IMG/VR virus record: IMGVR_UViG_3300035681_000001
Location: 62,001 to 126,000 of that record
Length of the DNA stretch: 64,000 nt
Source: a virus
Direction: 5' to 3' (one strand)
A model generated the notes under the pieces. That model saw nothing but the letters and a program-made list of their open reading frames with translations, was not told where the DNA came from and searched no databases. Shown one piece after another: positions 1,238 to 56,965 of the stretch (the stretch's first letter is position 1; each line of letters opens with the position of its first letter). A program made the translations under genes and the position numbers.

Positions 1238-1309
1238 AGCCCCCTACGAGGAATCGAACCCGCAACGGTATCTTACAAGGATACTGTTTTACCTTTAAAC
1301 TAAGAGGGC
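1238..1309 (-). tRNA. tRNA-Thr-like gene, anticodon UGU
   Basis: Acceptor stem 1303-1309 pairs with 1239-1245 (7 bp, one G-U). The D-stem is 4 bp. The anticodon stem GTATC/GATAC encloses the loop CTTGTAA with anticodon UGU (1275-1277), reading ACA. The TTCGATT loop is canonical. The T-stem closes only if a base at 1249 is bulged out, which is unusual. No CCA is encoded. It lies 18 bp downstream of the stop of the 4148-aa gene on the same strand, with a TATAAT box just before it. It is either a working phage tRNA with an odd T-arm or one beginning to decay. Confidence 0.72.
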
Positions 1310-14386: not shown

Positions 14387-17300
14387 CTACCAAGTGTCTA
14401 AAGAAAACCTAGAACCACCACCTGAACCACTAAAACTACCCCATCGCTGGCGGGTACCTAAAACTTCCCTTTTGAAGTTTCCTCTAGTAGAACTAAAGTC
14501 ATCTTCTACTGTAGGAGAAAATATAGCCGCAGGTTTTGGTACCGCTAATTTCCTAGAACTAGACCAATCAGCATGGGTGTTGCCTACTAGTTGCCAGCAA
14601 ATGGCGGCGACACAATCAGCCAAATCTTTGCTGTTATGGACTATAACTCCTGCTCCGACAGCAAAGTTATCCCAAAGATCCACTGACAAATCATAAACAG
14701 GAACTGGTTCTGATAATACAACCTTAGTAGTAGAAACTAGCTTTACTAGTTTTGTCAAACACATCAACTCAGCTTTACAGGTTTCTAGGTCTTTGGCTTG
14801 TATATACTCACCGCTGCTAAGCATAAATGGATGATCTGGGGTACACCTAATAACAGAACCATTATCTAAGCCTACATCTAGCAGTTCTGTTACCTCCATG
14901 GTTTTACGACCTCTAGCTCGACCAGGTACCAAAGTACCATCTGACTTAGCACTATATAACCAAACTTCTTTTCCTACCAACTCTGAAATCATTGGTGTAG
15001 TACCATCTAATAATGGTATTCGAGTTTCCCCGACTAAACATTTATCTGGCTTATGGTCAATTTTGTTAGCATTAATCAGCTGTAAGTGTATGAGTTCATC
15101 TTTTAGTAAAGATGTAAACTCTGACATCCTAGGGAAAATAATCCGATTCTCGTGTAGCAGCTTCCTCAAACAGTCATACATATCAAGTTGTATACCTCTA
15201 CTAAAGAAAATAGTTTCAGCTCGTAAGCCGTTAGCCTTAAGACGCTGAATAGTCTCTGGAGAGTGAGCGTGATCACTGGTAACTTTAGCTAGCGGCCGTT
15301 TACGGTTAATCTCATAAATAACAGACTGTACATTAGTGATACTGACTTGAATGCCGGGCTCAGGCTCCCAAGCTACTAGACCGTCTATAACCACTAAAGT
15401 TTCACCTTGTGAGTCGCGTTCTTTATGACCAAAAGCTAAACCGTAAGCATCACGTTTAACTGCTGGATCTAGGTGTAAGTAAGTAACTATACCGTCAGCT
15501 TCAGCTACTGTTGCTTGCATCCTCACTAGACCATCACCACCACTAGTGTCTTTCACTACTTTGATCTTTGAGCTGCCCCTAAAAGCTCTTACTACTTCTT
15601 CTTTGTCCAAGAACGAATACTGCCCTGAATGGCGTATACCTTCAAACTCCAAAGCAGCTTTAATAGGATCTTCTGCATACTCGATCTTAATGACTGGTTG
15701 TTGACGACCTGCTCGTTTAGGGTTAAGGTCCCAAGATCTTAACCTAAAGCCTACCATTGAGTCGGCTACTTCAGGATCTTTACACGTCCGATAAAGCTTT
15801 TGTATAGCATCTTCGTCTTCCCAAGCAGAAGAAATAGCTACCCTCAAAGCATCTAGCCCAAAAGTAACACCTGAAACACCAATGTTAGACCAAAGCTCTA
15901 AAGCGTTAGACTCACCGTTTTCAGATTTAAAGCGAGCTACTTCATCCATTACCAGCAAGATCACACTAGATCCTACCTGAGAAGAAGACTTAGAATTACC
16001 CGCGTAGATATATAGTAATTTTTCCGGATACTTGATTTCTTGTTCACCTACTATTATTCTTTTTTGGTCTATCAACCTGCGGATTACAGGTACGTAATAC
16101 AACAACGCTCGGGCTTGACCGTAAATAGTACGTTTAGTTTGTTCTGCAGCGGTAGCCATACAAAATATGGCTATAGGAGTAGAAGCTGCTATACCGTAGT
16201 GCAACTGGGGCGAAGACTGTAAGCACAACTTGTAGAACTCATAAGCAACTATCAAAGAGCCAACCATCGTGTTGTGGTTGGTGAAGCCCTGTGCAACGTA
16301 TTGCTCACACCCAGGTACTGAGAGGTCTACACAAAAAGCTTCAGAGTCTTCAACAGACTCCACGAGATCATAAAAGTAGTCGCAATCTCGTAAGTACTTA
16401 AAGTGCTCGACGGCTTCTAGATCACTACAATGTTCCTCAGCAAACTCAATCAAAGCCGGCAAACGGTAAGCACTGAATTCTTCAGTGGAGTTTTCTTTAA
16501 TAGAATTACCTACGATAGCTCGAAACTCTAGCTTTAAGTTTCGGGTTTTAGGTCGGTCTGCATAACCAGAACCTAGTAGTTTACCGGCGGCGTGAGCTGA
16601 ACCTGGCTGCTTGCCTCTATTAGAGGGTAAAGAATCACGCAGCCTCTTCAGCCACACTTTTTGGTTAGGTATACGTTCGGTATCACCTCCGTCTCTACTA
16701 GCAGCAGCTAAATAGTCAACTAACGGTTGCTGTTTTCTTGGCAAGCCAAAACCTATTTCAACAGCAAATCTCTTAACGCTGCGTTGCCCTCTTAGGATCA
16801 ACACGTAATAATCAGTTCCTTTGACATCTTTAGTTCTTACACGACTGACTACACCAAAGTTTAAGAGCATCAGCTGTACTTCTTCGGCTAACTGCTTTGA
16901 AGCAGTAGACAAAGTAACTTCTCGACCACCTTTCTCGCAGCTACCGTCAGCAGCAAAAAGACCGGACAAAAAAGCAGCTTGTACGTCTTTAGGGCTACGG
17001 CGTATAGACCAGGGTACTTTTTTAGTAGTAACGTGAGACTCAATAACAAAACCTAAAGAGTCAAAGTAACTACGCAGCACTTTACAGCCAATTGACAACC
17101 TGGCCCCAAATTGAGACCTCTTATCTTTAGTCTCCTTGGGGTACTCAAGTCCCGTTTTAGTAACTACGTCTGTATACCAAGGAATGTCTTGTAAGTGCGT
17201 AGTAAGCTGTATTTGGCAATTACTGGTCCAACTGCCGTCACCTACCAATAAACCTAAAAGCCTGCCTAAATCAGCATCTAAGAACTCAGGGTACTGCCGC

Positions 17301-18097
17301 TGCTTAACTGACATCCCATTGCTGTACTTAGTAAGGCTAGGGGCAAAGTGTTTTATTGATACGTATTCTGTAGGAAAAAGGTTGGTAGCTCTGTGTATAC
17401 AAGCCCACTCTCCCGCCTGAATGTCCCTAAAGTATCTCCACTCAATATTGCCGTGCGTATTTAATACTTTGATTCTATGTTCAGGGGTGGCTTCCAAGTT
17501 GTAGCTACATTCTGTTAGTACCTTTTTGGTTTTGGTTTGACCTTTTACGTAAAAGTTTTCAGCAGTAGCTCTTTTATTAGTTCCCTCAGTAGCTACGGTG
17601 TGGCTTAAAGGCAAAGCCACGTCTTTTAGTTGCTGCATACCTTGTTCAAGGGTAAGCATGTTCAGGTTCTGAGAAACAGACATAGCTTCTTTAAGCAGCT
17701 CGTGTCCATAAATCATACCATACTTTTGAGAGCCTAGGAGGGTATACAGACTGTGGCATTTGCCCCCCCTACGACCACATTCTAAAATCAGAGCTTGTTT
17801 CTTACCAATCTCCATTTCTAAGGAGAAACAGAGATCAAAAGTAGTACGATCTAGTTCATACCAAGTTTGTATAATTGCTCGCTCTTCATCATTAAAAACG
17901 TAATGCCCGTAAAAGATCTTTAAAATAAGCATCTGGCGGACATCTAACTCGATGCCCCAGTCTGGGTGTATTTCTTGCTCAATAAAGTCAACTATATTAG
18001 TTACTGCTGTATCAGTAGCAAACTTGGTTTGGAGATCTGTGACTAGATCATCAAAAAAACCATCAAAATTAAAATCCAGCCCGGCCGATTTGCTCAT
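14387..18097 (-). CDS. terL: Terminase large subunit precursor with two inteins
   Basis: DNA-packaging ATPase/nuclease translated as 1236 residues. Removing inteins 114-609 and 1020-1155 leaves 604 residues, a normal size. Joining the exteins restores Walker A (GRRGGK, then T610-M). Walker B is VILLVMDEV (~708-716). The C-terminal RNase H-like nuclease shows HLDPAVKRD (~875), an SDHAH segment and the final IDHKPDK/SKDLAD acidic motif, which the second intein splits. Both insertion points are thus in catalytic motifs, as is usual for inteins. The gene sits late in the structural operon, between baseplate genes and the giant gene. No small-subunit gene was recognised nearby. Confidence 0.96.
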   Translation of the reverse strand: MSKSAGLDFNFDGFFDDLVTDLQTKFATDTAVTNIVDFIEQEIHPDWGIELDVRQMLILKIFYGHYVFNDEERAIIQTWYELDRTTFDLCFSLEMEIGKKQALILECGRRGGKCHSLYTLLGSQKYGMIYGHELLKEAMSVSQNLNMLTLEQGMQQLKDVALPLSHTVATEGTNKRATAENFYVKGQTKTKKVLTECSYNLEATPEHRIKVLNTHGNIEWRYFRDIQAGEWACIHRATNLFPTEYVSIKHFAPSLTKYSNGMSVKQRQYPEFLDADLGRLLGLLVGDGSWTSNCQIQLTTHLQDIPWYTDVVTKTGLEYPKETKDKRSQFGARLSIGCKVLRSYFDSLGFVIESHVTTKKVPWSIRRSPKDVQAAFLSGLFAADGSCEKGGREVTLSTASKQLAEEVQLMLLNFGVVSRVRTKDVKGTDYYVLILRGQRSVKRFAVEIGFGLPRKQQPLVDYLAAASRDGGDTERIPNQKVWLKRLRDSLPSNRGKQPGSAHAAGKLLGSGYADRPKTRNLKLEFRAIVGNSIKENSTEEFSAYRLPALIEFAEEHCSDLEAVEHFKYLRDCDYFYDLVESVEDSEAFCVDLSVPGCEQYVAQGFTNHNTMVGSLIVAYEFYKLCLQSSPQLHYGIAASTPIAIFCMATAAEQTKRTIYGQARALLYYVPVIRRLIDQKRIIVGEQEIKYPEKLLYIYAGNSKSSSQVGSSVILLVMDEVARFKSENGESNALELWSNIGVSGVTFGLDALRVAISSAWEDEDAIQKLYRTCKDPEVADSMVGFRLRSWDLNPKRAGRQQPVIKIEYAEDPIKAALEFEGIRHSGQYSFLDKEEVVRAFRGSSKIKVVKDTSGGDGLVRMQATVAEADGIVTYLHLDPAVKRDAYGLAFGHKERDSQGETLVVIDGLVAWEPEPGIQVSITNVQSVIYEINRKRPLAKVTSDHAHSPETIQRLKANGLRAETIFFSRGIQLDMYDCLRKLLHENRIIFPRMSEFTSLLKDELIHLQLINANKIDHKPDKCLVGETRIPLLDGTTPMISELVGKEVWLYSAKSDGTLVPGRARGRKTMEVTELLDVGLDNGSVIRCTPDHPFMLSSGEYIQAKDLETCKAELMCLTKLVKLVSTTKVVLSEPVPVYDLSVDLWDNFAVGAGVIVHNSKDLADCVAAICWQLVGNTHADWSSSRKLAVPKPAAIFSPTVEDDFSSTRGNFKREVLGTRQRWGSFSGSGGGSRFSLDTW
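14633..15040 (-). other. Mini-intein in terminase nuclease motif (136 aa)
   Basis: Residues 1020-1155 of the precursor. It starts with Cys (CLVGETRIP), has the block B TPDH motif, and ends with VIVHN followed by Ser1156 as +1 nucleophile. No LAGLIDADG endonuclease is present, so it is a minimal splicing (Hint) unit. It splits the nuclease motif between IDHKPDK and SKDLAD. Confidence 0.93.
16271..17758 (-). other. Full intein with LAGLIDADG endonuclease in terminase Walker A (496 aa)
   Basis: Residues 114-609. It begins with Cys114 immediately after GRRGGK, has block B ATPEHR, two dodecapeptide LAGLIDADG motifs (LLGLLVGDG ~280-289 and FLSGLFAADG ~375-385), and ends with the penultimate His and Asn609 before Thr610. 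The paired Asp residues of the dodecapeptides are intact, so the homing endonuclease may be active. Excision rebuilds GRRGGK-TM. Confidence 0.95.
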
Positions 18098-39160: not shown

Positions 39161-40483
39161 TCAGAATGTACCGTAGTTGACGTTAGCCTCAAGGATCAGC
39201 GAGCTGGTGAGGTCATTAGGTTCACAAACAGTCAAGTTAGCAATCCAATGGGGGTACACAGCAAAAGGCAAGAACGCGTCACCCATTTGCATAACCCGAC
39301 CCGGAGGAGAAGGAGGTGCAGCATCAGGGCTGGTACGCATATAAATGCCAGCAGTACCGTCAGGCGCTTCACCCACGCAGTGTTGAGTCATACCCAAAGA
39401 AGCACCACCACCTTGCATATCACGAGGAGCTACCAGCGCTACTTTGTTAGCAGGCCAGTAAACTTTGATGGTGTTAGTAACAGGATCACGGTACAAACCG
39501 TTAATCTCTCGAATACGCAAACCAGCAATAGAAGTCAGGCGACCACCTGGACCAAAAGTAGCCCAACCAGCAGGCAGAGCACCTTGAGAAGCACCGACTG
39601 CTGCATTACCTGCTACCGAACCAGCTTGGTTAAGTACCATCAAACCAGGTAGACCTTGGTAAGCCTTAAGGTACTCGTTAGTAGACTGAATAACAGTCAG
39701 CAACTGAGGAGACATAACAATCTCCGTAAAACGGTTTTTGTTAGTCAGCTCTAGGTATTGAGCAATCAGTTGAATACAACGAATGATGTTAGCTCGGGGG
39801 TGAGTCCAAGGTACACCAAAGCGATCATCCGAAGAAGTAAAGAAAGCAGCTTCGGTACGACCTGCATCATTAACCAAAGCGGTAGCTGCAGTATAAGAAG
39901 TACCAGCAATAGTTTGAGTAGCACCAGCAGCTACTGCACCATTCCAGCCTTTATAGCTAAAGAAATTCTGGGCCGGGATATTGGTACTTACGTTAATACT
40001 TACACCAGTACGAGGATCAGTGTAGTTAATACCACCCAACAGAGTCTTGGAACGGAAAAGCTCCTTAACGCGCATGTGGCGGTTAACGAGCTTCTGAACC
40101 CGACGAGACACAATCTCAGCAGGTGACCACTGTTGATTTACAGTGCCCGGCTGGCGAAGTTGGTTAATAAGAGCTTGTTCGATAAAGTCTTCTTCCCGCA
40201 CTGAAGCAGGAGTTACGCGCATCGAACGAGTCCGGTCGGGCTCTACAAAACCACCACCAGGAACACCAAAACGAACAATAGGCATAATGCCCAGACCTTC
40301 GATGATCTGTTCGATCACGATAGTCCGTTCGTTAATAGTAGTATCTGGGAAAAGGTCTTGTAGGCCACCAATTTCCACAGTCTCAAAAGATCGCGCCAGC
40401 ATAGTCAGCTGCAGCGAACCTAGAGAAGGAATATCACCTGTATACGCGTAAGGAGTAGTCTCAGCCTGAAACTCTAGAGCCAT
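39161..40483 (-). CDS. Major capsid protein, GpE-like, 440 aa
   Basis: HK97-fold capsid protein of the lambda gpE type. Supported by the N-arm, a TLLGGINYTDPRTGVSINVS segment (the family has a K-[DE]-x-x-G-x-x-[VI]-[DN]-[FV] hairpin here), the later R-[IL]-REINGLYRD segment and the C-terminal SLILEANVNYG. It follows the protease/scaffold gene and has a GAGGCAAA ribosome site. Conserved Pro/Gly-rich loops (GVPGGGFVEPDR) match the E-loop region. Confidence 0.9.
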   Translation of the reverse strand: MALEFQAETTPYAYTGDIPSLGSLQLTMLARSFETVEIGGLQDLFPDTTINERTIVIEQIIEGLGIMPIVRFGVPGGGFVEPDRTRSMRVTPASVREEDFIEQALINQLRQPGTVNQQWSPAEIVSRRVQKLVNRHMRVKELFRSKTLLGGINYTDPRTGVSINVSTNIPAQNFFSYKGWNGAVAAGATQTIAGTSYTAATALVNDAGRTEAAFFTSSDDRFGVPWTHPRANIIRCIQLIAQYLELTNKNRFTEIVMSPQLLTVIQSTNEYLKAYQGLPGLMVLNQAGSVAGNAAVGASQGALPAGWATFGPGGRLTSIAGLRIREINGLYRDPVTNTIKVYWPANKVALVAPRDMQGGGASLGMTQHCVGEAPDGTAGIYMRTSPDAAPPSPPGRVMQMGDAFLPFAVYPHWIANLTVCEPNDLTSSLILEANVNYGTF

Positions 40484-43661: not shown

Positions 43662-44126
43662 ATGTCAATAGAATTCATTAAAAAAGAAGGATTGGGTGAC
43701 ACCTGGGCTGAGTACCAAACCAGGTTTCCGTCACTACCAGAGTTTTACTTCAAAACTCTGCAATATCCTACTAGCTGCTCTAAAGCCGAGGAGCTAGTAA
43801 GACTAATCCAACTTGAAATGAATTCTATTGATGCTCAATTCATAGAACGTCGAGTAGAACTGGAAACAGTAAACACAGCCCAAAAAGACTCAGTTACCGC
43901 AGAACACGAACGGTGGAAACTAAAAGCCTTAAGGGCAGTGAGGATGAAAGCTGCACAAATACAAATACTGCAAGCTTGGATAGCAGATAACTCAAAAACC
44001 CACGAAAGCCGCTTTACACAACTTGAGTCTGAGTTATCTGCTTTACGTAAGGCCTTACTAAAGCTGGTATCGTCAGTAGAAATCTCAGACTCAACTTATT
44101 GTGAAATTATTAAGCTGCTGGCTTAG
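43662..44126 (+). CDS. Coiled-coil protein, 154 aa
   Basis: Unrecognised. Residues ~40-135 form a long Lys/Glu/Leu-rich coiled coil. ATG at 43662 follows the dut stop by one base with an AGGGGTG ribosome site; the upstream GTG at 43626 is inside dut and less likely. Its last 17 bp overlap the convergent portal gene, so transcripts of island and operon collide here. Confidence 0.75.
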   Translation: MSIEFIKKEGLGDTWAEYQTRFPSLPEFYFKTLQYPTSCSKAEELVRLIQLEMNSIDAQFIERRVELETVNTAQKDSVTAEHERWKLKALRAVRMKAAQIQILQAWIADNSKTHESRFTQLESELSALRKALLKLVSSVEISDSTYCEIIKLLA

Positions 44127-45567
44127 CTGGCAACCTAGCTTGACGATTAGGCATACTATTTCCAGTAGGACGACCTCTACCACCCGTACCGCCCTTACCT
44201 GTTTCATCAGCACCAGGTTTAGGTAGTAAAGGATTAATAACTACCTGTTGAATAAATCGCAAATCATCAGCATCCATCTTACGATCTGACAACCTAACCA
44301 TCTGCCTAACCATGTCCCAATCTTGCGGGTTAGTAGGGTTTAGGTAACCAGTATCAGTAAGACCTTTAACCATTTGCATGGTAGCCACGCGGTCTTCGGG
44401 ACGATCTGAATAAACCCTAGTAAAAGTAGGGGGTATCTTTGCAGAAGCTCTGCTGAAGTTCCACTCTACTAACGGCATCATTACTTTACGCAACACCACT
44501 GAGGTTAAGTTCCGGCGGTGAGAATCTAGAGCATTGTAGTAAGCTTCCATGCGGCGCTCTTTAGCTTCAGGGTCAGCTTTACTATTAGCTGCTTGGTGAT
44601 CTGAAATTAAGAAATAAGGCAGAATGTGTTTGGTTGACTCTTGGTCGGTATAGGCAATAGCATCTAAGAAAGTAGTTCCTACGTTATCAAACAACGGAAC
44701 TGAATTTACTGTAGGTTTGTTTTCTGGGCTCTGCTGAGGCAAAAACAGAAACTCAGGAGGACCTTCGATGTTCTCTAGTTGCTCCCTAACTAGATCCAAA
44801 GTAGTAATAGGTTTTTGTTCACCAGTAGAAACGTCCAGCCGTTTTTCAGGTAACTCGTAACTAGGGATAGAAATAGAAGTCATACGGGACCCAGTTTTAT
44901 CCAACGCGGCGCCCATCATGTCAATAATGGCTTCTTTTAAGCGATACCACTTGTAACTAGGAGCTATCAACGATCGACCGTAATAATTACCGTAGTCAGA
45001 CTCATTAGCTAAATAAAGGGTCTTCCACAGCGGCAGCTTTACTTCAGCTTGCAACGGGTTCAAACCTACTTGGTAAAAACCTGATTTATGGTAACCATCC
45101 ATAGTAGGCTTACCCTCTGTCAATCGCCCGTGCTTGTCTGGGTAAATCAAGCACGTTGAAGGGTGGTAGGTTAGCAAGTCATGCAAATACAACTGCCCAA
45201 ACTTGAGATCAAACATTACCTCCGTAAGAGAATATCCAGCCCAAAAGCTAGTGTGCTGGATAGTAGACAAACAGTTCTGCCAAGACCTACCGTGTTCGTC
45301 TTCTAGTTGTTTTATGTTGTCGTTTAGAAATTCAGCTATTTCTGGATCAGGGTGAGTTAGTTCACCAATAGTCCCTACTATGGAATTAACTTGTGTGTGC
45401 AGAGCAGTTTTGATAGTTAAGTCTTGTCTCCACATTCTTTCATAAAGCCTTAGCCTAGCTATTAAAGGTCGGCGTATAGCATCTGTTAAAGAAAAGCTGC
45501 CTAGTTGTGCAAACTTACCCCGAGCTGCACTCTTAGACAAATAACTTAGATCTCCAGATACAGGCAT
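44110..45567 (-). CDS. Portal protein, Mu gp29-like (DUF935), 485 aa
   Basis: Head portal for DNA entry and exit. Features match the DUF935/Mu gp29 type: an N-terminal RLRLYERMWRQDLTIKTALHTQ helix, SFWAGYSLTEVMFD and YGRSLIAPSYKWYRLKEAIIDMM segments, then a helical crown and a Gly/Pro-rich basic tail. Its ATG overlaps the stop of the frameshift extension (TAATG), coupling the two. Confidence 0.9.
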   Translation of the reverse strand: MPVSGDLSYLSKSAARGKFAQLGSFSLTDAIRRPLIARLRLYERMWRQDLTIKTALHTQVNSIVGTIGELTHPDPEIAEFLNDNIKQLEDEHGRSWQNCLSTIQHTSFWAGYSLTEVMFDLKFGQLYLHDLLTYHPSTCLIYPDKHGRLTEGKPTMDGYHKSGFYQVGLNPLQAEVKLPLWKTLYLANESDYGNYYGRSLIAPSYKWYRLKEAIIDMMGAALDKTGSRMTSISIPSYELPEKRLDVSTGEQKPITTLDLVREQLENIEGPPEFLFLPQQSPENKPTVNSVPLFDNVGTTFLDAIAYTDQESTKHILPYFLISDHQAANSKADPEAKERRMEAYYNALDSHRRNLTSVVLRKVMMPLVEWNFSRASAKIPPTFTRVYSDRPEDRVATMQMVKGLTDTGYLNPTNPQDWDMVRQMVRLSDRKMDADDLRFIQQVVINPLLPKPGADETGKGGTGGRGRPTGNSMPNRQARLPAKPAA

Positions 45568-46112
45568 TAGTTAAAAGCGCGGTGCATAGACTCGTTGGCT
45601 CTACCAAAGTTTAAATTAGACCCTACATTCATAGAATCTAACTTAAACTGTTGTTCTTTTTCCTGTTGAGCACGACGAACACGTTCAGCGTGCTCAGTGG
45701 TTTCTTTTAGTATCGCATCCATAATAACAGTTGGGTAGCCATATTGTTCAACCCACCAATCACTACCCAACCAGTCCTTCAAGCATACTGACCCACCTAA
45801 AGCTGTAAATTCACGTATACGGTATTTATTAGTGTAGTGCTGTAAGTGCTCTAGCTTTACTAGTTCTTTGTCCAAAATAAACTGGTTGTATTCTTGTTCT
45901 GTCCAACCAGACCAGGGGCCGAAGCCCCACCAGTCTGGGTGAACTGAAGTAGCTCCGTAAGTAGCTCCGTAGTAGTCAAACTCTAAAGATTGAGGTACTG
46001 GAGGTACGTAGTTTAAGTAAGGTATCAGTCCTGAGTTACTACCAAGGCTGAGCGAGTAGTACCTTTCGCTTTTGATTCTGGTTTCACTGACCCACCGCGC
46101 CGACCTAACTGC
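45567..46112 (-). CDS. Frameshift extension of the chaperone-like gene (-1 frame)
   Basis: This frame has no usable ATG of its own; the first candidate start (TTG at 45875) would cut a well-conserved-looking Trp/Tyr-rich region (DWWGFGPWSGW). The -1 frame is open without stops from the slippery heptamer at 46112-46118 through to the stop at 45567-45569, adding 181 residues. Together with the 0-frame N-terminus it gives a ~408-residue fusion, analogous to lambda gpGT. The C-terminal part is charged and helical. Function is not recognised beyond this analogy. Confidence 0.8.
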   Translation of the reverse strand, partial: AVRSARWVSETRIKSERYYSLSLGSNSGLIPYLNYVPPVPQSLEFDYYGATYGATSVHPDWWGFGPWSGWTEQEYNQFILDKELVKLEHLQHYTNKYRIREFTALGGSVCLKDWLGSDWWVEQYGYPTVIMDAILKETTEHAERVRRAQQEKEQQFKLDSMNVGSNLNFGRANESMHRAFN

Positions 46113-46792
46113 TTTCCCAGGGTCTTAGCTGACTCAGTTTGAGCATCATCAATAGTAAACATATTGATGAAAATCAAGTTAGCAACTTGAACATCCATAA
46201 TAGGCAGTGGATCTAAAATAGCCACTGGGTCTTTTTTAGCAGTACGATCAATTTCTACTCCATCAATATGCGTGATGCAAATCGACATCAGCATTTCTTC
46301 CAAAGAACACCCGTTAGTTTCAGGACCTTGGTGACTGCGATCAGCAGACATCTGAGTACCAGTGTTGGGCCTAGTAAAAGTTACTGTATGTAAGTTAGAA
46401 GGCAAAAAGTCTTTAGCTAGGGTGTAACTAAGAGTAGGGGCACCCAACGCAAGGTTTTGTGCTTGTTGTCTAGCCACTCGTGCTTCAGCAGGAGACATAA
46501 AGTAACCTTCCATAAAAGCAATCAGCAGAAACTGTTTGTCTTCAATGCTGAGGTTGCTAAGCCGGTCGATTACATCCCGAGCGTTATTATCAAATTCTTT
46601 ACCGTTAACACCTACAAAAGAAAGAGCAAACAGCAGTTCTTCTACGCTGTAACCTGGTGAAGGCTGATTCTGACCAGGGTAAGGATAACGCTTGCGGGCT
46701 TCTCTCCAATCCCCAAAAGTCGGTTCCTTGAGTAGGATAGAGAAAGACTTAGAAGGAATCTGATCCTTCTCAATGGTAATCAGCTCGGTCAT
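46025..46792 (-). CDS. Tail assembly chaperone-like protein (0-frame product), 255 aa
   Basis: The first ~110 residues (FSILLKEPTFGDWREA, YSVEELLFALSFVGVNGKEF, LIAFMEGYF) resemble gpG- or gp26/gp51-type tail and baseplate assembly factors in pattern. Without frameshifting, translation stops at 46025-46027. With it, translation enters the extension ending at 45567. ATG at 46792 (context AATTGAACATG) is preferred to a TTG two codons earlier. It is the first gene of the leftward operon, unusually far from the tape-measure candidate. A baseplate-hub assembly factor is an alternative. Confidence 0.75.
   Translation of the reverse strand: MTELITIEKDQIPSKSFSILLKEPTFGDWREARKRYPYPGQNQPSPGYSVEELLFALSFVGVNGKEFDNNARDVIDRLSNLSIEDKQFLLIAFMEGYFMSPAEARVARQQAQNLALGAPTLSYTLAKDFLPSNLHTVTFTRPNTGTQMSADRSHQGPETNGCSLEEMLMSICITHIDGVEIDRTAKKDPVAILDPLPIMDVQVANLIFINMFTIDDAQTESAKTLGKQLGRRGGSVKPESKAKGTTRSALVVTQD
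46112..46118 (-). other. Programmed -1 frameshift site GGGAAAG
   Basis: On the minus strand the 0-frame reads CTG GGA AAG, i.e. G-GGA-AAG, the exact slippery heptamer of the lambda G-GT genes. After slippage the -1 frame stays open for 181 codons, to the portal gene. No strong downstream stem was required for the lambda site. Confidence 0.85.
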
Positions 46793-46798
46793 GTTCAA

Positions 46799-46853: not shown

Positions 46854-49800
46854 ATGAACCCAGAAGAAAACCTAGATCTAAATGACGAACTAGACTCTGA
46901 GCTAGGGGAACTAGGTGGCGAGGATTCAGTAAAAGACCAAATAGCAGACGAGCTAGAAGGTAAGCACGATATTGCTGACGGTGACCACCAAAGCTCAGTC
47001 AAAGAATTCTTTCGTATTTACGACATTAAGGCTGGTGATCCTTTTAAAGCCGTAGAACTAGAAAGTACTGCATTCTTAGAAAAGGTAACAGCGCAAGAAC
47101 TACAAAATGTCAATCGGCTTAATAAACAAGAAGATCAACGAGCAGCAATTAATAAAACTCTAGAGACGTACCGAGAAGCACAGTCACAAATCACACAGCT
47201 GCAAGGTAACCGCTTAAGACAGTCACTGACTGCTTACGGTCACGCTATAACAGAACGCAGCGGAGGTTACATAGGACCTCAAACAGGCCTAACGTTCAGG
47301 GCTAGAACTGAAGACTATTTAGCCTTTAGTAGATCACTAGGTACCAGCCGGCTGGATATGGCTGTGTTCCAAGTACAAAACCAAGAACTACTAGGTGGTT
47401 TTTTGCGCGGTGGTGTGCGGAAATTGCAAATAACCACTCAACTAGATGAACCTATCGCGGCCTCTAGTGAAAGTGTTAGTAAGTGGTACGAAAACGAAAA
47501 ACAGAGATTTGGTATTACAGGGCCTAACGAAGTACTAGCCAGTGCTTTTAGGAATAGCCCACACTTAGGCCGAGCTGAAGTAACTGTGAGTGGTAGTTAT
47601 ATTAAAAAACCCAACGACACCCAACGCGGCTTGATGCACGCCAAAATAGCTGCTTTGTATGAAGGAGACGAGACAAACCAAAAACTAGTAGGTGCTTTTA
47701 TAGGCACACAAAACTTTACTAGAGCTCTAGCCAACACACGTACTGAAGAAGAAACTCTGTTTATCTCCTTAAAAGGAGATCAAAAGTATCTTGACGGTCA
47801 AGATCAACTAGAACGAGGTCGCGCACTGATCAGACAAAGAATAGCTAACGAGATAGCACTAGTTACTGAAGGAATCAGAGAAAACTTTACTGAAGCTCGT
47901 ACTAGTAGGCAACTAACCACAGACATAGACCGCAAACTGCAAAGAAGAAACGTAAGCTACGGTACGCACGTGTTGCCAGTAATAGGCGAGATGCTCAGTA
48001 CCGCTGTTACTGAAAAGAGACACGTGCTGTTGAATATGCAATATATAGAAAAGTTCTTAGCTGCTGAAGGAGAACACGAAGGTAAAATCTACGGCAGCTT
48101 AGCCACACTAGCCGCCGAAGGTCGCTTAACAGTAGCTGTCTCTGAGACCAGCTTAGCTAAAGGTACAGGCTATTACTCTTTAATGGACCAAGTAAGAAAA
48201 GATACGGTCAACAACACCTTAATACAAACACTGCTACAAAAAGATGCTTTTGCAGTGCTACCAACCAGGTTCTTACACACTAAAAGCATTGCTATTTTTG
48301 GAGACTCAACGCTAAGTAACTTAGTTGAGTACGGTATAGGCTCACAAAACCTTAGTGAAGAAAAATACACCTCCGCAGAATTAAACTTTGAAACTTGGGT
48401 CCGGTTAACTCAAGGTGGTCTGCCAGGAGACCTGGAAGACGAACTAACTGCGTTGGGAGTACACAGGTCTAGTGGTCAACTAGCAGCTACAGCTAGAACT
48501 CGCTCGCAACTATATGTAGACCGCATGGGGTCTGCTGCACAAGTAGCAAACTTAATAGACAAATTGGGTGAAATGGGTGGAGCCGATACACATTTGTTTG
48601 ACACACTAGAACCTGGAAAAAGGTTTAAATACAACGTTAGGTATAAGACTCCCAGCTTGATTCCAAACCTAGCCCAAAACTCAGCCCGATCAATAGCTGA
48701 AAAGGCTATGTCTGGTGTAGATATCTACCTACCTAGTGCTAACAACTACCGCTTGAGCGCGACCATAAGTGAAGAATATACTCACGACCTTAAAAGAAAA
48801 ATGCCGGTGGTTTACCTAAACACCGGCAACCGTATCATCACAGGTGCTATCTATCGTATAGCACGAGACCTAGAAGGTCAGGTTATGCTGCCTAACGGCA
48901 AAATAGCTAAAGCTGGAGACACCATAAAACTTGGTGCTCTAGAGGTATTCCAAAGTTTTATTGAAACCGTAATCAAAGCCACTGAGTACGAACGTAACTA
49001 CCGAGCGCCGGTACTGGTACTTAGGTCCATGGGTGTTGAAAAGCTAAGTCGATTTATTGACTCAGTACCTGGAGACCCGCAGGGTAAAAGAGACTTACTG
49101 TACCAACTACTAAGTCCAGAAAATAAAGGACAGCAAGCGCAAGGTTCACTAGAAGCTATACGACTATTACAATCCGTAATACGAGCTGACCCTACCGGCC
49201 GACTGCAGCGGATGGAAGCCGGGTTTGTGTCTACTGGTATTAGAAACGTAGTATCAAATATCTCAGCTAGTTTCTTACAACCACACGAAGAACTTTACTC
49301 AGGTGGGCACCTGACAGCAATCATGCCTATATTTGGCATGGACAATACCATATTCAGTAAGCACTTTAGTGGTAACTCCGGCACCGCTTTACTAAACCCT
49401 TACAAGCTGTCTCACTACGACTTAATAAACACCGGCGGGTTGGATTTATTCCGTGGAGTACAAGATTCTACTCAAATACGTACTACTAACTGGCAAGACC
49501 TAGAAGGAGGGTTGTACCACTCAGAAGGCGGCCCTACCAAAGTAACTGACATAGCCCAGTTCATCAGATCTACTAAAAATATGGCTGTTATTAATGAACA
49601 GTCGTTAAGAGAGTCTCAAGCGTTAGGGTTGACCAGCAACATACAGCTCACACCTGGTACTAATTTATACGTGATGCCTTACGGCAAGGCAGAACAAATT
49701 TCCGCTCGCTTGAAAAACAAAAAATCAGAACGGGTACTGCTAGAACCTAGTGACGAGCTGCTGAAATTCATACAACAAGGAGGCCGGAATGCTAATAACT

Positions 49801-52800
49801 TAATCCAAAACAACAACTTAATCAGAAATGCAGTTTCAGTAGACTTACCACCTGAGCAATTTGCTATCTATCGTCAGATCCTGGCAGAACAAAGAGGTGA
49901 TACTCAAAAAACTCTAGAAATACTACGTGAAAGGCAATCCAACCCTTTAACTGCTATGCAAGGGTTGTTAGGTGCTAGTCAGTATCAAAAAGTACTGATC
50001 TCAGCCGGTTTTAGTATGCAGTCTGATTTCTCGTACTTTAATGAAAAGTATCTAGACAGACCCTTAGTAGACCAAACCATAAAGTCTTACTCTTTTAGCA
50101 GCGATAACGTAGGCTCAGCTTTAACGCTAGCCAGACAAGCTAAAGAAAAACTCCGTAAGGGTACTATATTCCTAGCCGAGGACATAGACCTAGAAGATTA
50201 CTCTAGGCTAGTAGGAGGAGAAAGCTATTCCGACGCTTTTGTAAAAGCGTACCTAGTTAAAAGCGAAAGTACTTATTCGTGGGGTGAAAACGTAGATGCA
50301 GAAACCAGAAAACAACTGAACAAAATGGTGTTTGTGGATCTTACTGATCCTGCAAAACCCATACTAAAACTTAAAAAGGGTGTTTACTACAACGACAGCC
50401 AAGAAATACTGGGTCTACAAAAGATCGGTAAAATGAACTCTACTTCTCTAACCTTTACCATTGACGGCCTAGAGGTACAAAGCAGAGAAAACCGCAAGCT
50501 CAGAACCTTCACTCTACCGCTGGATAACTCAGCTATTTCTCGTCGAGCTCACCGATCTATAGCTGTGTTAAAAGAAGATGCTATGGTCAGCCAACAAGGA
50601 CCCAACGTACGATTAGAAGCTACTTACAGTACGTTGCTGTTTGGTCAAACCGGGATGCGTACGATAGGAGCCAAAGGTCCTATCTATTCCGTGATGGAAA
50701 GTTTCTTTGAAGGACTAGCTAAAAACAGAGGTTGGGATAACAGCGCTGTAGCAGTAATAAACCCTAGTCAGATCAAAGACTATAACTTCGGAGACGGGTT
50801 CTCTAAGCTGTCTGATAAAAACCACTTTTTAAGAACTGGTGCAGCTGACGCTGACCAACTAGAGTACTTTAGGCAAGGTCTGCAATACCTAATAGACACT
50901 GGTAGGAACACTGAAAAAAACCTACTAGCACGTGGCGGCCCACTAAAGTGGGGTTGGGACATATATGAACTTTTAGGAGACTTAGAGCTTAACGAAATAC
51001 AACAAATCACCACTGAACAAGCTGCAGAAAAACTCAAAAGAGTACAGCAGTTTAGTGCAAAAATCTATGGTAACAAAAACTACTTCCAAGGCGGAGCCAT
51101 AGTATCTAACACATTAACTCGCGGTCTGAGCATACTAGCCACAGTTAGCTCTCAAGCTGAAGACATCGCCACGCAAAAAGAACTGTATTTAAGTAGAAAA
51201 AAACCGGGTGCACTAGAAACAGAAATAAACTACGACAGTGTGGCACTACAAGAATACCTCTATGACTCGCAGAACCCTCGTAACCGCACTAGGGAATCCC
51301 AAGCTTTGATCTTTGGTATAAATCTAAGGAACTTAAGAGAAAACGAATTAGCGGCAGCTTTCCAATTAATGGAAGCTACGTATGGTAACAACATAATGCT
51401 ACGAGCAAACATAGACTTGAGTTTCAGCCGGATTGCCGTTTCGATGGGCATGAAAACTGAAACCAAACTAGAAGCTGCCTACGCAATGGCCATGACTCAA
51501 AACCAGCTAAAAGCGTACACTTACCAAAAAGGCGGCGCTGAAGGCCTGCAAGGTGCGCTGGTAATGCTGGCTCAGTTAAACAATCGTGTAGTAAGCACTG
51601 ACGCCGTAAGCAGATACTACTCATTTGCACAAGAAACAAACTTACTAGAATTTGGTCTTAAAGAAAAAGCCAAAAAGTCTAAAAACTGGAGGGATCAGTT
51701 AAGAGCCAACGCGTTTGTGGCTGCTTTTACGAGTAAGTACTCCATATACTCCAGACAAGACCTGGTTGAAATAGAAGAAGACCGACAGCGCCGAGTCAGA
51801 GAGGAACCTATCAAAAGTTTGGTAGACGAATTTGAAAGAGGATTGTACAGGGACATAATCCCTAAAACTGAGCTGCTAACTGCACCTACTAACATTCTGT
51901 TAAACAGAATGGAAACCTATGGCGGCATCATGAGTTCTGGAACAGTAGAGCAAGCCGCTAAAGCAATGATCGAACAGTTAAAAATAGTTAGAGGTACAGA
52001 GTTTAGAGCAGGTATGCAGCAAAATTACGGAAAATTAGAATCAGGGAAACTCACTAGTAAAAAAGCTGGTGCTAAAAGGTTTACAGAAAGTGGCAGCTTT
52101 TATAAGGAGTGGTTTTACTCAAAAGAAGCAAAATCTGATCGTTTTACTTTTACTAAAAGCATAGAAATACCATCTAATATATTCTCTCCAAAAGGGCTAA
52201 GTGAAAACTTTTTGCAATATGCAGGGTCTTTTATAGAAGAACGGTTAGGTAAAGGAAACCTACTTAAAATTACGAATTATGTCCAACTGCTAGATACTAT
52301 AAAAAAAGCAGAAACTACTCCAAGCGGGTCGCTAACATTCAAAAGTTACTACGAAAAACGCTTCAGAGAAACTTTTGATACTCCAGAGACCTTAGAGTAC
52401 TACACAAACCTAATAACTAAAAGCCGGGAACGCATTTCTAGTAACGATGGCTCAGAATACCTAGAATCCATGCGCTCCCTGGCTCTTTATGCAAAAAAAG
52501 ACTCAACACTAATGCGCACCGTACAGCAATCTCAGTTGCTGCACCTACCTATGTTAGAAATGACTGGTAGCGGTGACTCGCTAAGGTACCACCTGTCAGA
52601 TCAAGTAGTAAGTGGTGCCAGGTACGGTCTGGACATCCTAGAGCAAATTAGCTTAGTGTTCCACGGCTACAGCTCAAACATTTTAATAGAACAGCGTAAT
52701 CTACAGTCTTACTTAACAGAAGCCATCCGCAGTGGGTTGCTAAAGAAAATAACTCAAGGGATCCAGCAAGGAGAGGCTTACCAAGGCTTAGACCTAAATG

Positions 52801-55800
52801 CTAAAGAAGTAGAACTCTATCAAAACCTAGTAAACACTTTAGGTAGTACGCCGCAAAGCATTCAAACACTGTTTGAAGCTAAAGACGTAATGCGTCAAAG
52901 TGAAGGCGACCGCCTCAAGATGTCAGGTACTACCTTTGTAGGTATTAACAGTGCCTTAGTAGCTGTTAAGGACTTGATATTAGGTGACCAAATCGAGCAT
53001 GTTTTTAACACTGGAGGCACCAAAGGTACTGAAGGGTTAGCTCAAACTTTAATAAAAGAACTAAACGCAACTAGCAAACGCGCTCAAGAAGCTACAAACC
53101 AAGCTCTAGCCATAAAAAGACTGTACTTAGTCGACAGCGGCTTTAGTGACCTACCTACCGAACAAAGCTTTAAAACACAAAGCAAAGCACTAAAAGAAAT
53201 AGCAAGCGAATGGAAAACAGCCGGTAAAGATAAAGAAGCCAGAAAAGTACACGAGCTAAGGTTCTACGAAACTATGCTAGGTCTGAGTGCCGGAGACCTA
53301 AGTACAGAAGAAAAACTAAAAACCCACACTGAGAAATTGTCGTCACTATACAGAGTAGCTAATGCAGTTCGTACTGGCGCACCTTACGGCATAGCACAAG
53401 ACTCAGCTTTGATTCCAGTACAAGTCAAGGGTTTAGACGCTTTAAAAACCGCTGGTACCACTACTGGTACGTTGTTGCAGCCAGGCAGGCACAACACCAC
53501 AGCTATGATCAGCTCTAGTTTGTCGTATATGTTTACGCAACTAGGAGACTACGACGGGGATACTTTCCAAGTAGCTTTTCCTGCAATAGTACAAGAACTA
53601 GCTAAAATAAAACTTACTCAAAACAAATTAGCCAGCCTAAAACCAGGTACCGAGGCCTTTAAAAACACTTCAACAGACCTAGTTGATTTACAAAAACAAC
53701 ACACTGAAGCCATAAATGCACTTACTGGACACCTGCAGAACATCGCAGAAATGCAAAAATCTGCGCTGCAGCGGTTTAGTTCACGTTACTACGGCTTCGA
53801 TAAAGAACTACTGCGATACATGACCAATGAAGAACTGCAGCACCTTAGCTTGCAGTTCCGGGATACTATGTCAGGTTCAGACAAAGGAGCTGAGTACGTC
53901 AATGAAAGCTGGCGGCTAATCACTAGGTTAGTAAAAGCTGCTGAAGCAGTAAATCCCACTAAGCTACTTGACTACGGAACTCTATTAGAGGACTTACAAC
54001 TCACTGATGGAGAACTGAAAAAAGACCTAGCTCAGGCTTTGGACCCTGAAAAAAAGTTCACAGAAATAAACGGATTAACTGTAAGAGAGTACATAAACCA
54101 GCTGCAAATCCTTAAAAACGCAGAATTTGCAGAAACTAACGTCCGCAGCATGTTAAAAAATAGTATGGGTACTGTACTAAGCGGCGTAGAACTAGAAACC
54201 CTAGGTGCTGTAGTAGGTACTACTGGTATGGGTATGCTCGGAGTTACCTATAATTCCGTCACACCTTTGATGGAATTAGTACAAGGTCAAGAAATGGCCC
54301 AACGGGCTTTGAGTAAGCCTGAAGGTGATTCTTTGTTGCAAGGCTTAGTCAACCAAACTCAAGCAGCACTCAATACGACAGTAAAACTAGAAAAAAACCA
54401 ATTAATCAAAACACTAGACCTACAAGTAGGCATAGCCCATAATTTCTCCTTGACCACGCAGCAATTCATGCGTGATGCTGCGCTGAAGCCTAAGCAAGGC
54501 GGAGGCATACTACAGCTAGCTGCTGAATATAAGTTAAGTGAAAAGCTAAAAGAAGCTGCTAACAGTCAAACAACAGAAGAACTAAAAAGAACTGCAGTAG
54601 AACGTACTCTAAAAACTTTCATTAATACTAAAGTAGGCTCTCAACTGGGCGTAGGCAGTGCTAATAATTACAGTGCGTTCGCAGCTCTAACACTAGTAAA
54701 TGAATACTTAGGTAGTAGACTCACAGCCGAAGAAATAATAAATGATGGTATGCTAAGCAGCTACCTACAGAACAAATGGAGAGAAAACCGAGACCTAACA
54801 GCAGACCGACTAGTAGCTACCGAAATAACAAAATTACATAACCTGTTCAAAATAGACTACGTAACCAACCACATCCTAAAAGTAGACTCTAGTGTAAACG
54901 GAGGTGTACAAAGGCTAGTAGAAGTAATTAAACAGACTGCTTATGGCCAAAGTGTTAAAAATGCGGGGTACGATGACGAAGCTTACGTTAAAGGTTACCT
55001 AGACCAGCGGTTTAACAGCAAAGAATACACCGAAGGTTCAGTAGACCTACTAATACAAGGCAAACAATTTAGTCAAGAACTCCAAAAAATAGCCGCAGGA
55101 GAAAGTCCTTTAATAGGTGCTTTAGGTAAAGGTGTTTCTCAGTACCTAGCTGCAGCTACGCTGCACAACCGTAAAGGCGGAGACCAAACCGCTCGTCTTA
55201 ACTTGATGAACCAGCTAAGAACTAGTTCTGACAACTTTTACGAGAACTTTACCGAAAACGTTACTTCTAAAAAAGAAGAAACCTACAAAGCTGCTCTAGC
55301 TATAAGTGCTGTAAGTGGTCTGCTACCTATAAAAATTGCATCAGCACTTCAAAACGCTACCCCCGAGCAAAGAGGTAAGTTCTTAACTTCACCTGAAGTT
55401 CAAAATTACATAAACGCTACTTTAAGAGAGTCAGGAACCATAGCCACTGGTGTAACAGCAAACGAGCAGCAAATGCGTTTGTTAAGGCAAGTACTAAATA
55501 CTGACACTAGTGACAGCGGTACTATTCAACTTCAAGCACTATCAAGAGGTGCGGCACCTATTTCAGGTGTTGCGGAGAACCCAGAAATTGAAGCACTGCA
55601 AAGAAGCATAGACGACGTATGGGCTAAAACAGAACCTATAATGGCAGCAGAAAACCAGCAACGAATTGCAGAATCAGAAGCTCGGATAAAAACTGAAACT
55701 ACTAGGTTAGTAAAAGCTCATCGTAAGGCTGAAATATTCTCAATACTAGCTGTACCCGCATTGTTAGCTACTTTCTCAGGACAAACCCTAAAACCAGAAG

Positions 55801-56489
55801 AAATAGGCTCTATAGCCACCAACGTATTCCAAGCTGGATTGATGGCTACCAGCTTTAACAATTCAGCAGTAGGTCAGTTCTTAGCTCCTGATAAAGTAGA
55901 CGCTAAGTCCATAAAAGTCCTAGCTGAAGCTGATCGAGCTATGCAATATACCCGGTTGCGGGAGTTTGTTAGGTCTAATGAAAACCCACTAACGGGAGTA
56001 GCCCAAGCTGCTGCTTTTGAGGCTTCAGGTAGAGCTGCCAGTCATGCCGCTGCGTTGTTAATACAACGTGCAGCTCCTAGGTTAGCTGAATCAAGCGCAG
56101 GTCGAGGTACCACTGAAGTCTTAGGCGGGTTATTAGGCTTAGCTGTGAGCGGTGTATTAACCAACCGACCTATAACTGGATTAAATGAAGGCATGGGTTC
56201 AGTAGTAACCTACGCCGCTGCGGCCCTACAAAACCTACAAATTTCACTACAAGAAGCTCAAAACCGGTATATGTCTTCTTATTTAGATCCAGAAGATTCT
56301 ACTGAGATGTCCTTAAGCATATCAGGAGATACTGATTCCAGCGTTTACCCTTCAGAGCTAGAACTACAAGCTAGGACAGGCTGGGATCCCAGAGTAGAGC
56401 TCTATGATCCAGTAGCTTTTGAAGGCACTATAGATATAGAACCCCAATTACTGGGACCTGATTCCATTGAATCTATAAGCCTCGGATGA
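46854..56489 (+). CDS. Giant 3211-aa protein with PLD-like domain and DxDGD motif (candidate virion RNA polymerase)
   Basis: Residues ~150-510 contain two PLD-type HxK sites: H262-K264 followed by GTQN (284-287), and H475-K477 followed by GSQN (496-499). Residues 2232-2236 read DYDGD in the context QLGDYDGDTFQVAF, close to the catalytic DxDGD loop of two-barrel RNA polymerases (cellular beta', YonO-like, crAss-like and phiKZ-type). The remainder is long, helical and mostly soluble, unlike the membrane-rich 4148-aa giant. No Shine-Dalgarno precedes the ATG. If it is a polymerase it may be packaged and injected like N4 vRNAP. PLD assignment is moderate, polymerase assignment tentative. Confidence 0.8.
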   Translation: MNPEENLDLNDELDSELGELGGEDSVKDQIADELEGKHDIADGDHQSSVKEFFRIYDIKAGDPFKAVELESTAFLEKVTAQELQNVNRLNKQEDQRAAINKTLETYREAQSQITQLQGNRLRQSLTAYGHAITERSGGYIGPQTGLTFRARTEDYLAFSRSLGTSRLDMAVFQVQNQELLGGFLRGGVRKLQITTQLDEPIAASSESVSKWYENEKQRFGITGPNEVLASAFRNSPHLGRAEVTVSGSYIKKPNDTQRGLMHAKIAALYEGDETNQKLVGAFIGTQNFTRALANTRTEEETLFISLKGDQKYLDGQDQLERGRALIRQRIANEIALVTEGIRENFTEARTSRQLTTDIDRKLQRRNVSYGTHVLPVIGEMLSTAVTEKRHVLLNMQYIEKFLAAEGEHEGKIYGSLATLAAEGRLTVAVSETSLAKGTGYYSLMDQVRKDTVNNTLIQTLLQKDAFAVLPTRFLHTKSIAIFGDSTLSNLVEYGIGSQNLSEEKYTSAELNFETWVRLTQGGLPGDLEDELTALGVHRSSGQLAATARTRSQLYVDRMGSAAQVANLIDKLGEMGGADTHLFDTLEPGKRFKYNVRYKTPSLIPNLAQNSARSIAEKAMSGVDIYLPSANNYRLSATISEEYTHDLKRKMPVVYLNTGNRIITGAIYRIARDLEGQVMLPNGKIAKAGDTIKLGALEVFQSFIETVIKATEYERNYRAPVLVLRSMGVEKLSRFIDSVPGDPQGKRDLLYQLLSPENKGQQAQGSLEAIRLLQSVIRADPTGRLQRMEAGFVSTGIRNVVSNISASFLQPHEELYSGGHLTAIMPIFGMDNTIFSKHFSGNSGTALLNPYKLSHYDLINTGGLDLFRGVQDSTQIRTTNWQDLEGGLYHSEGGPTKVTDIAQFIRSTKNMAVINEQSLRESQALGLTSNIQLTPGTNLYVMPYGKAEQISARLKNKKSERVLLEPSDELLKFIQQGGRNANNLIQNNNLIRNAVSVDLPPEQFAIYRQILAEQRGDTQKTLEILRERQSNPLTAMQGLLGASQYQKVLISAGFSMQSDFSYFNEKYLDRPLVDQTIKSYSFSSDNVGSALTLARQAKEKLRKGTIFLAEDIDLEDYSRLVGGESYSDAFVKAYLVKSESTYSWGENVDAETRKQLNKMVFVDLTDPAKPILKLKKGVYYNDSQEILGLQKIGKMNSTSLTFTIDGLEVQSRENRKLRTFTLPLDNSAISRRAHRSIAVLKEDAMVSQQGPNVRLEATYSTLLFGQTGMRTIGAKGPIYSVMESFFEGLAKNRGWDNSAVAVINPSQIKDYNFGDGFSKLSDKNHFLRTGAADADQLEYFRQGLQYLIDTGRNTEKNLLARGGPLKWGWDIYELLGDLELNEIQQITTEQAAEKLKRVQQFSAKIYGNKNYFQGGAIVSNTLTRGLSILATVSSQAEDIATQKELYLSRKKPGALETEINYDSVALQEYLYDSQNPRNRTRESQALIFGINLRNLRENELAAAFQLMEATYGNNIMLRANIDLSFSRIAVSMGMKTETKLEAAYAMAMTQNQLKAYTYQKGGAEGLQGALVMLAQLNNRVVSTDAVSRYYSFAQETNLLEFGLKEKAKKSKNWRDQLRANAFVAAFTSKYSIYSRQDLVEIEEDRQRRVREEPIKSLVDEFERGLYRDIIPKTELLTAPTNILLNRMETYGGIMSSGTVEQAAKAMIEQLKIVRGTEFRAGMQQNYGKLESGKLTSKKAGAKRFTESGSFYKEWFYSKEAKSDRFTFTKSIEIPSNIFSPKGLSENFLQYAGSFIEERLGKGNLLKITNYVQLLDTIKKAETTPSGSLTFKSYYEKRFRETFDTPETLEYYTNLITKSRERISSNDGSEYLESMRSLALYAKKDSTLMRTVQQSQLLHLPMLEMTGSGDSLRYHLSDQVVSGARYGLDILEQISLVFHGYSSNILIEQRNLQSYLTEAIRSGLLKKITQGIQQGEAYQGLDLNAKEVELYQNLVNTLGSTPQSIQTLFEAKDVMRQSEGDRLKMSGTTFVGINSALVAVKDLILGDQIEHVFNTGGTKGTEGLAQTLIKELNATSKRAQEATNQALAIKRLYLVDSGFSDLPTEQSFKTQSKALKEIASEWKTAGKDKEARKVHELRFYETMLGLSAGDLSTEEKLKTHTEKLSSLYRVANAVRTGAPYGIAQDSALIPVQVKGLDALKTAGTTTGTLLQPGRHNTTAMISSSLSYMFTQLGDYDGDTFQVAFPAIVQELAKIKLTQNKLASLKPGTEAFKNTSTDLVDLQKQHTEAINALTGHLQNIAEMQKSALQRFSSRYYGFDKELLRYMTNEELQHLSLQFRDTMSGSDKGAEYVNESWRLITRLVKAAEAVNPTKLLDYGTLLEDLQLTDGELKKDLAQALDPEKKFTEINGLTVREYINQLQILKNAEFAETNVRSMLKNSMGTVLSGVELETLGAVVGTTGMGMLGVTYNSVTPLMELVQGQEMAQRALSKPEGDSLLQGLVNQTQAALNTTVKLEKNQLIKTLDLQVGIAHNFSLTTQQFMRDAALKPKQGGGILQLAAEYKLSEKLKEAANSQTTEELKRTAVERTLKTFINTKVGSQLGVGSANNYSAFAALTLVNEYLGSRLTAEEIINDGMLSSYLQNKWRENRDLTADRLVATEITKLHNLFKIDYVTNHILKVDSSVNGGVQRLVEVIKQTAYGQSVKNAGYDDEAYVKGYLDQRFNSKEYTEGSVDLLIQGKQFSQELQKIAAGESPLIGALGKGVSQYLAAATLHNRKGGDQTARLNLMNQLRTSSDNFYENFTENVTSKKEETYKAALAISAVSGLLPIKIASALQNATPEQRGKFLTSPEVQNYINATLRESGTIATGVTANEQQMRLLRQVLNTDTSDSGTIQLQALSRGAAPISGVAENPEIEALQRSIDDVWAKTEPIMAAENQQRIAESEARIKTETTRLVKAHRKAEIFSILAVPALLATFSGQTLKPEEIGSIATNVFQAGLMATSFNNSAVGQFLAPDKVDAKSIKVLAEADRAMQYTRLREFVRSNENPLTGVAQAAAFEASGRAASHAAALLIQRAAPRLAESSAGRGTTEVLGGLLGLAVSGVLTNRPITGLNEGMGSVVTYAAAALQNLQISLQEAQNRYMSSYLDPEDSTEMSLSISGDTDSSVYPSELELQARTGWDPRVELYDPVAFEGTIDIEPQLLGPDSIESISLG

Positions 56490-56965
56490 CTTCAGCCCGT
56501 ACTGAAAACTTTAGCTACCAAACGTTAGCCTATATGGTAGGTAGGTCTTACGTGCTGGGCATAGGAAAAACTTCAAGCTGGGCTGTAGAAGCGGCACCAC
56601 CTAACGTGGATCCCTCAATAACTGAAGTTCCGGAGTTAGGATTGTTAATACCTGCTGCTTTAACAGCCGTTTATTGGGATCCTAACGGACTTATAAGTGT
56701 AAACGGCGTGCACTACTCAACAGCTAACAACCTAGCAGATATAACCACTAACCACGCTACTAGGCTTTTGGCTACAGCTACTTTAAGTCACAACAACCTA
56801 ACCCTAGCTAGCTACCGTGCGTTAGGATTGTATCTAGCTAGTCCTAGTGGTGTGGGCCCTTGGTTACCTGCTGCGGTGACTGCTAGGACATTAGTATACG
56901 CAACGTACCAACCACCTACTACAGTTACGGCTAATTTGACAGAAAACATAAAGCTGGTCTTCTGA
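56486..56965 (+). CDS. Hypothetical structural protein, 159 aa
   Basis: ATGA overlap with the 3211-aa gene. The N-terminus (YVLGIGKTSSW...APPNVDPS) resembles the glycine-and-proline segment found in several T4-type structural proteins (gp8-like). The remainder is beta-rich. A virion role is inferred. Confidence 0.7.
   Translation: MTSARTENFSYQTLAYMVGRSYVLGIGKTSSWAVEAAPPNVDPSITEVPELGLLIPAALTAVYWDPNGLISVNGVHYSTANNLADITTNHATRLLATATLSHNNLTLASYRALGLYLASPSGVGPWLPAAVTARTLVYATYQPPTTVTANLTENIKLVF

Follow-up and report, generated by a model that had tools for sequence, protein, structure and literature searches.

A conserved giant phage protein that joins PLD-type sites to a DxDGD motif and may be a virion RNA polymerase

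A single giant phage protein carries two PLD-type sites at its N-terminus and a DxDGD motif in its central region, and this architecture is confirmed as widespread in the phage group to which it belongs, viruses of freshwater cyanobacteria. The protein is read here as an ejected enzyme of the virion that combines a PLD nuclease with a probable two-barrel RNA polymerase, a reading whose chances we put a little below even. The source record is an IMG/VR virus of 189,763 bp, and the window analysed is a stretch of 64,000 nucleotides corresponding to its bases 62001-126000. Features of the giant gene and of the genes around it are collected in Table 1.

Architecture and conservation of the giant protein

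An earlier note, made from the letters of the window, had placed two PLD-type sites and a DxDGD motif on this chain. Both PLD-type sites are present (HAK...GTQN from residue 262 and HTK...GSQN from residue 475), and the DxDGD motif occurs as GDYDGDTFQVAF, which begins at residue 2231, one position beyond the start of 2230 that the note had given. In 2000 shuffles of the protein, neither GD[YF]DGD.[FY] nor paired HxK..G[ST][QSA]N sites occurred. Bare D.DGD arose in 1.75% of the shuffles, a figure that could be cited for chance resemblance of both motifs in a fast-evolving giant protein; such a coincidence is scarcely credible, and it is refuted as regards conservation, because both motifs are kept in at least 16 whole genes, down to about 20% identity.

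The giant protein has at least 18 relatives that extend to about 20% identity. The whole gene is readable in 16 of them (15 IMG/VR contigs, two nearly identical, and the Microcystis phage Ma-LMM01), and the other relatives are cut by contig ends. One relative, 52-57% identical, was recovered directly. A degenerate LGD[YF]DGD.FQ pattern retrieved six IMG/VR stretches, all confirmed by blastp as family members; a search with the RDAxKPK pattern added three further relatives, N-terminal queries with the PLD region four, and broader Asp-motif patterns three contigs, two of them viral and the third assigned to an actinobacterial MAG. The family member on NBNH01000120.1, filed in an Actinomycetales MAG, lies on what is probably a phage contig binned there. 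The tblastn searches of INPHARED with the giant protein or its near relative gave no match; only distant relatives led to Ma-LMM01, and gp080 of that phage, together with a truncated Microcoleus phage gene, was reached via weak tblastn matches.

Whole genes of the family measure 3055-5341 codons. All 16 genes that can be read from the PLD region to the Asp motif contain the HxK...N pair together with GD[YFN]DGD, spaced about 2000-3200 residues apart. The Asp motif served as bait in some scans, and the unbiased support for linkage is that of the N-terminal queries: three members recovered via the PLD region afterwards proved to carry GDNDGD, and the linkage is therefore not circular. The occurrence of PLD-type sites and DxDGD on one chain, which the earlier note had described for a single gene, is borne out across the family at 20-57% identity.

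The giant protein itself matches no Pfam family, and its PLD region was placed through its relatives. PLDc_2 matched in three of seven members (best E 5e-6, just under the curated cut-off), relatives score above the cut-off for RE_NgoFVII (the PLD domain of the NgoFVII endonuclease), and Tyr-DNA phosphodiesterase is a weak Pfam match in relatives. The family profile gave only a weak match to NucT (E 0.21) when compared with the PDB. At both sites HxK and N, which form two active-site halves, are conserved across the family; in the giant protein, an aromatic residue stands where HxKxxxxD has its Asp. A PLD (HKD) domain in the family is supported by Pfam, and this part of the protein may have a nuclease or end-processing role.

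Table 1. Features of the giant gene, its neighbours and a Ma-LMM01 gene; positions are those of the window except where an accession is given
Feature	Position	Strand	Remarks
Giant protein, PLD + DxDGD	46854..56489	+	3211 aa, ATG start, uninterrupted ORF
PLD (HKD) region, residues 140-560	47271..48533	+	Pfam PLDc_2 / RE_NgoFVII in relatives; invariant HxK and N
PLD-type site 1, H262-x-K264 ... N287	47637..47714	+	motif, conserved in relatives
PLD-type site 2, H475-x-K477 ... N499	48276..48350	+	motif, conserved in relatives
Conserved block 1265-1315, K1274 (KGP) and K1308	50646..50798	+	candidate basic residues, putative second barrel
Conserved block 2010-2050, R....(D/N)R.....G...I...S...	52881..53003	+	candidate first half of DxDGD-bearing barrel
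R2173-TGA-P2177, near-invariant R..P, ~55 residues upstream of DxDGD	53370..53384	+	family conservation
D2232-Y-D2234-G-D2236, candidate Mg-binding Asp triad	53547..53561	+	three Asp invariant across family
LGxxYN motif, residues 2462-2467, conserved	54237..54254	+	family conservation
RDAALKPK, residues 2540-2547	54471..54494	+	R, D and both K invariant in 11 full-length sequences
Hydrophobic Gly/Ala-rich C-terminus, residues 2950-3211, conserved	55701..56486	+	70-82% identity to nearest relative over most of length
159-aa protein directly downstream of giant gene	56486..56965	+	weak baseplate-wedge / virion structural match
257-aa gene	46025..46798	-	function unassigned; adjoins giant gene in relatives examined
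Mu-type portal protein	44110..45567	-	neighbour of giant gene
Major head protein, same module	39161..40483	-	
Ma-LMM01 gp064, RTPMG...NPLLWQAANEGDADGDQ	NC_008562 43811-48832	-	annotated as hypothetical

The DxDGD core

The Asp triad (D2232, D2234 and D2236) and the Gly are invariant in the family, with Y, F or N at x. Within the motif, fixed positions are confined to Asp and Gly, which is the pattern of RNA polymerases; the DxDxD Asp triad of two-barrel polymerases is matched as a sequence motif only. Upstream of DxDGD, R..P is found in 10 of 11 sequences. It may be compared with the RxP motif of RNA polymerases. Other highly conserved core positions are R2173..P2177, L2462-G-x-x-Y-N2467, R2540-D-A-x-x-K-P-K2547, K1274 and K1308. 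Of the two upstream basic residues, K1308 is invariant and K1274 near-invariant, and hhalign gave no profile support for a second barrel. The lysines of that barrel, which the earlier note had not located by eye, are still without a confident location, no lysine pair having been placed. In the two-barrel polymerase scheme, the Asp triad is contributed by one barrel and the basic residues by another (PMC7824862). The conserved core positions look like an active site and appear to resemble this scheme.

Searches of Pfam, PHROG and PDB sequences found no match for the giant protein or for the family core. Alignment of the core by hhalign with phi14:2 gp66, P23-45 gp96 and gp64, RpoB and RpoC extended nowhere beyond the motif itself. 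In a test of the motif flanks, the giant protein scored z -0.97 against known polymerases, and gp66, gp96, gp64 and RpoC recognise each other at z 2.0-4.8. Two AlphaFold models (1182 and 799 residues, from 10 and 15 sequences) reached pLDDT 45 and 52 and a pTM of about 0.3, and are not confident; both are mostly helical around the motif, and Foldseek with the second, low-confidence model gave no match at E<=0.001. Structure prediction, proposed by the earlier note as a check, thus yielded models too weak to show or exclude a double-psi barrel. The motif that the note likened to the catalytic loop of two-barrel RNA polymerases is conserved, and its assignment to such a polymerase is a hypothesis. 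Given the weak models, the negative flank test and the absence of polymerase alignment outside the motif, the polymerase claim rests on motif, architecture and analogy.

It is quite possible that the protein is instead a large virion or ejection protein with a PLD nuclease, in which DxDGD is the metal-binding or catalytic loop of a non-polymerase domain (a structural ion site, or a nuclease or nucleotidyltransferase of unknown fold). The negative flank test, the helical, albeit unreliable, models and a profile similarity that stops at the motif are what such a domain would predict. However, the three Asp and the Gly stay invariant while x drifts, and further invariant R, D and K occur in the core, a pattern to be expected of an active site. 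An EF-hand-type calcium loop is unlikely, since loop position 6 lacks Gly and position 12 has no conserved acidic residue. In favour of the polymerase reading are the Asp triad, the upstream R..P, RDAxKPK, a gene position within the virion module and the existence of a second DxDGD protein, as in P23-45; by sequence and analogy, polymerase identity is plausible, though a little short of an even prospect.

Genomic setting and a second DxDGD protein

Genes near the giant gene encode a Mu-type portal, a major head protein, TerL with an intein, a sheath C-terminal domain, baseplate J and a baseplate-wedge-like protein, a set from which the phage is taken to be contractile-tailed (a myovirus). The giant gene lies on the strand opposite to the capsid module, with its start beside the portal cluster; like the 257-aa gene, the portal gene adjoins the giant gene in the relatives examined. 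Portal identity is about 49-57% among IMG/VR relatives and 89% in the nearest, and Ma-LMM01 has a more distant portal homologue (22%) beside its giant gene. The giant protein diverges much faster than the portal (about 20-25% identity). From gene order beside the portal and capsid genes only, we infer that the giant protein is part of the virus particle; a search for virion proteomics found none. Its C-terminus is possibly a packaging or membrane segment.

The terminase large subunit gene (window 14387-18097, - strand) contains an intein that includes a LAGLIDADG endonuclease; a second HINT-like match lies close to the C-terminus. A full sigma-70 gene (record 7696-9618, + strand) has about 320 extra residues, possibly an intein, between region 2 (93-144) and region 3 (464-541). 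The sole tRNA found in the window is a tRNA-Thr (TGT) at 1238-1309 (- strand).

Another giant gene of the phage (window 1328-13774, - strand) encodes a protein of 4148 aa that bears a PLDc_2 domain at its N-terminus (E 9e-16), has several TM-like segments and, towards its C-terminus, contains stretches which by eye resemble transglycosylase and M23 sequences; it is a tape-measure candidate. Paralogy between the two giants was rejected, as blastp gave no match at E<=0.01. The presence of a PLD domain in this other giant, along with the great size and the hydrophobic Gly/Ala-rich C-terminus of the DxDGD protein, would fit a third account, in which the latter is mainly structural and tape-measure-like, its PLD part is a phospholipase or membrane-active domain that aids DNA across the thylakoid-rich envelope, and no polymerase is involved. 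This account is improbable: the closest PLD profiles are nucleases and end-processing enzymes (RE_NgoFVII and, more weakly, Tyr-DNA phosphodiesterase and NucT), the 4148-aa protein with its TM-like segments is a better tape-measure fit, and the invariant Asp triad is left without explanation.

A second DxDGD protein of the same phage (2319 aa) is encoded outside the window (record 129720-136679, + strand). Its motifs read ...SRAPLAAG...GGDCDGD..., and a Dda-like helicase forms its C-terminus. Homologues occur in five of the relatives' records, with the R, P, G and Asp triad invariant (RxP...G, GDxDGD). Profile comparison with P23-45 gp64 gave an alignment in register, 101 columns long and including both motifs, but the match is weak (probability 17%; reversed-profile control 0.1%). 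The motif flanks of the helicase-fused protein show no significant likeness to those of known enzymes (z 0.36). An hhalign match between the two DxDGD families (probability 36%) was not relied on, as the reversed profile of the giant protein also matched the giant protein (76%), the motif being near-palindromic. Ma-LMM01 gp064 is a homologue of the helicase-fused protein (138 columns, probability 31%; reversed control 0.1%) and adjoins the early gene cluster gp054-gp063, whose genes belong to the early class (PMC5780444). Directly upstream of the early gene gp063 are 42-bp tandem repeats, six full and one partial (NC_008562 43271-43551), possibly a promoter array. The helicase-fused protein is a candidate non-virion RNA polymerase.

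Proposed role and comparison with known systems

In the preferred reading, the giant protein would be a multi-domain particle enzyme that enters the cyanobacterial cell together with the DNA. Its N-terminal part would be an HKD phosphodiesterase (PLD superfamily) with two sites, most likely a nuclease or a phosphotransferase acting on DNA ends, and its central region a two-Mg catalytic centre (DxDGD), most likely within a highly diverged single-chain two-barrel RNA polymerase. The polymerase would make the first phage transcripts, as P23-45 gp96 and crAss-like gp66 do, and the helicase-fused protein and Ma-LMM01 gp064 would be the non-virion polymerase of the same phages. To the ORF, motifs, motif linkage and invariance, gene neighbourhood and second DxDGD protein observed here, this reading adds a presumed packaging and ejection, presumed catalytic activities and a presumed polymerase fold. 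The full combination, in which one ejected chain unites an HKD nuclease with a single-chain two-barrel polymerase of deep divergence and acts alongside a helicase-fused second polymerase, is a tentative and rather doubtful proposal.

Among viruses of Microcystis blooms, the freshwater cyanophages of the Ma-LMM01 group have been studied best; they are described as devoid of an RNA polymerase and dependent on the host (PMC9927357, PMC5780444). A true particle polymerase would supply the transcription enzyme that these cyanophages were thought to lack, and would be a new domain architecture among single-chain two-barrel polymerases; no report of a PLD-polymerase fusion was found in the literature searched. 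Ma-LMM01 is in culture and allows a direct test of the idea. The statement that the MaMV-DH01 genome has no RNA polymerase (PMC9927357) is one of annotation. All three Ma-LMM01 promoter classes are reported to be SigA-like and host-type (PMC5780444), which is real counter-evidence, yet compatible with brief pre-early transcription.

Homologues of the giant protein in known phages are gp080 of Ma-LMM01 (YP_851094.1, 3562 aa; annotated only as a hypothetical protein) and UWV19731.1 of MaMV-DH01, both Microcystis phages (Fukuivirus). They share with it the two HxK...N sites, LGDFDGDTF, LRDAIKPK and the strand arrangement beside a portal homologue, but are about 20-25% identical, and the second PLD site aligns with a shift. 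PLD-superfamily enzymes (the NgoFVII N-terminal domain, NucT and Tdp1) likewise have HxK...N sites, and Tdp1 has two in one chain; in contrast to these nucleases and end-processing enzymes, the giant protein matches at weak scores only and has the HxKxxxxD Asp replaced. The virion RNA polymerase of phage N4 is about 3500 aa long, packaged in the head and ejected, and has a T7-like fold with a motif unrelated to that described here. The virion RNA polymerase gp66 of the crAss-like phage phi14:2 (AGO48955.1 in KC821624) is likewise one long virion chain that bears a DxDxD motif, but the motif is DFDID, and there is no PLD and no profile match.

Thermus phage P23-45 gp96 resembles the giant protein in its great size, its place in the virion module and its single D[FY]DGD, and it too comes from a phage with a second DxDGD protein. 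In gp96, however, the polymerase lies at the N-terminus of a tape measure, no PLD is reported, and sequence similarity is limited to the motif. The arrangement of a virion and a separate DxDGD polymerase has been shown experimentally in P23-45 (PMC10770324). Sequence-profile similarity is weak or absent even among accepted two-barrel families, and one giant virion protein turned out to be a polymerase though DFDGD alone was recognisable (PMC10770324).
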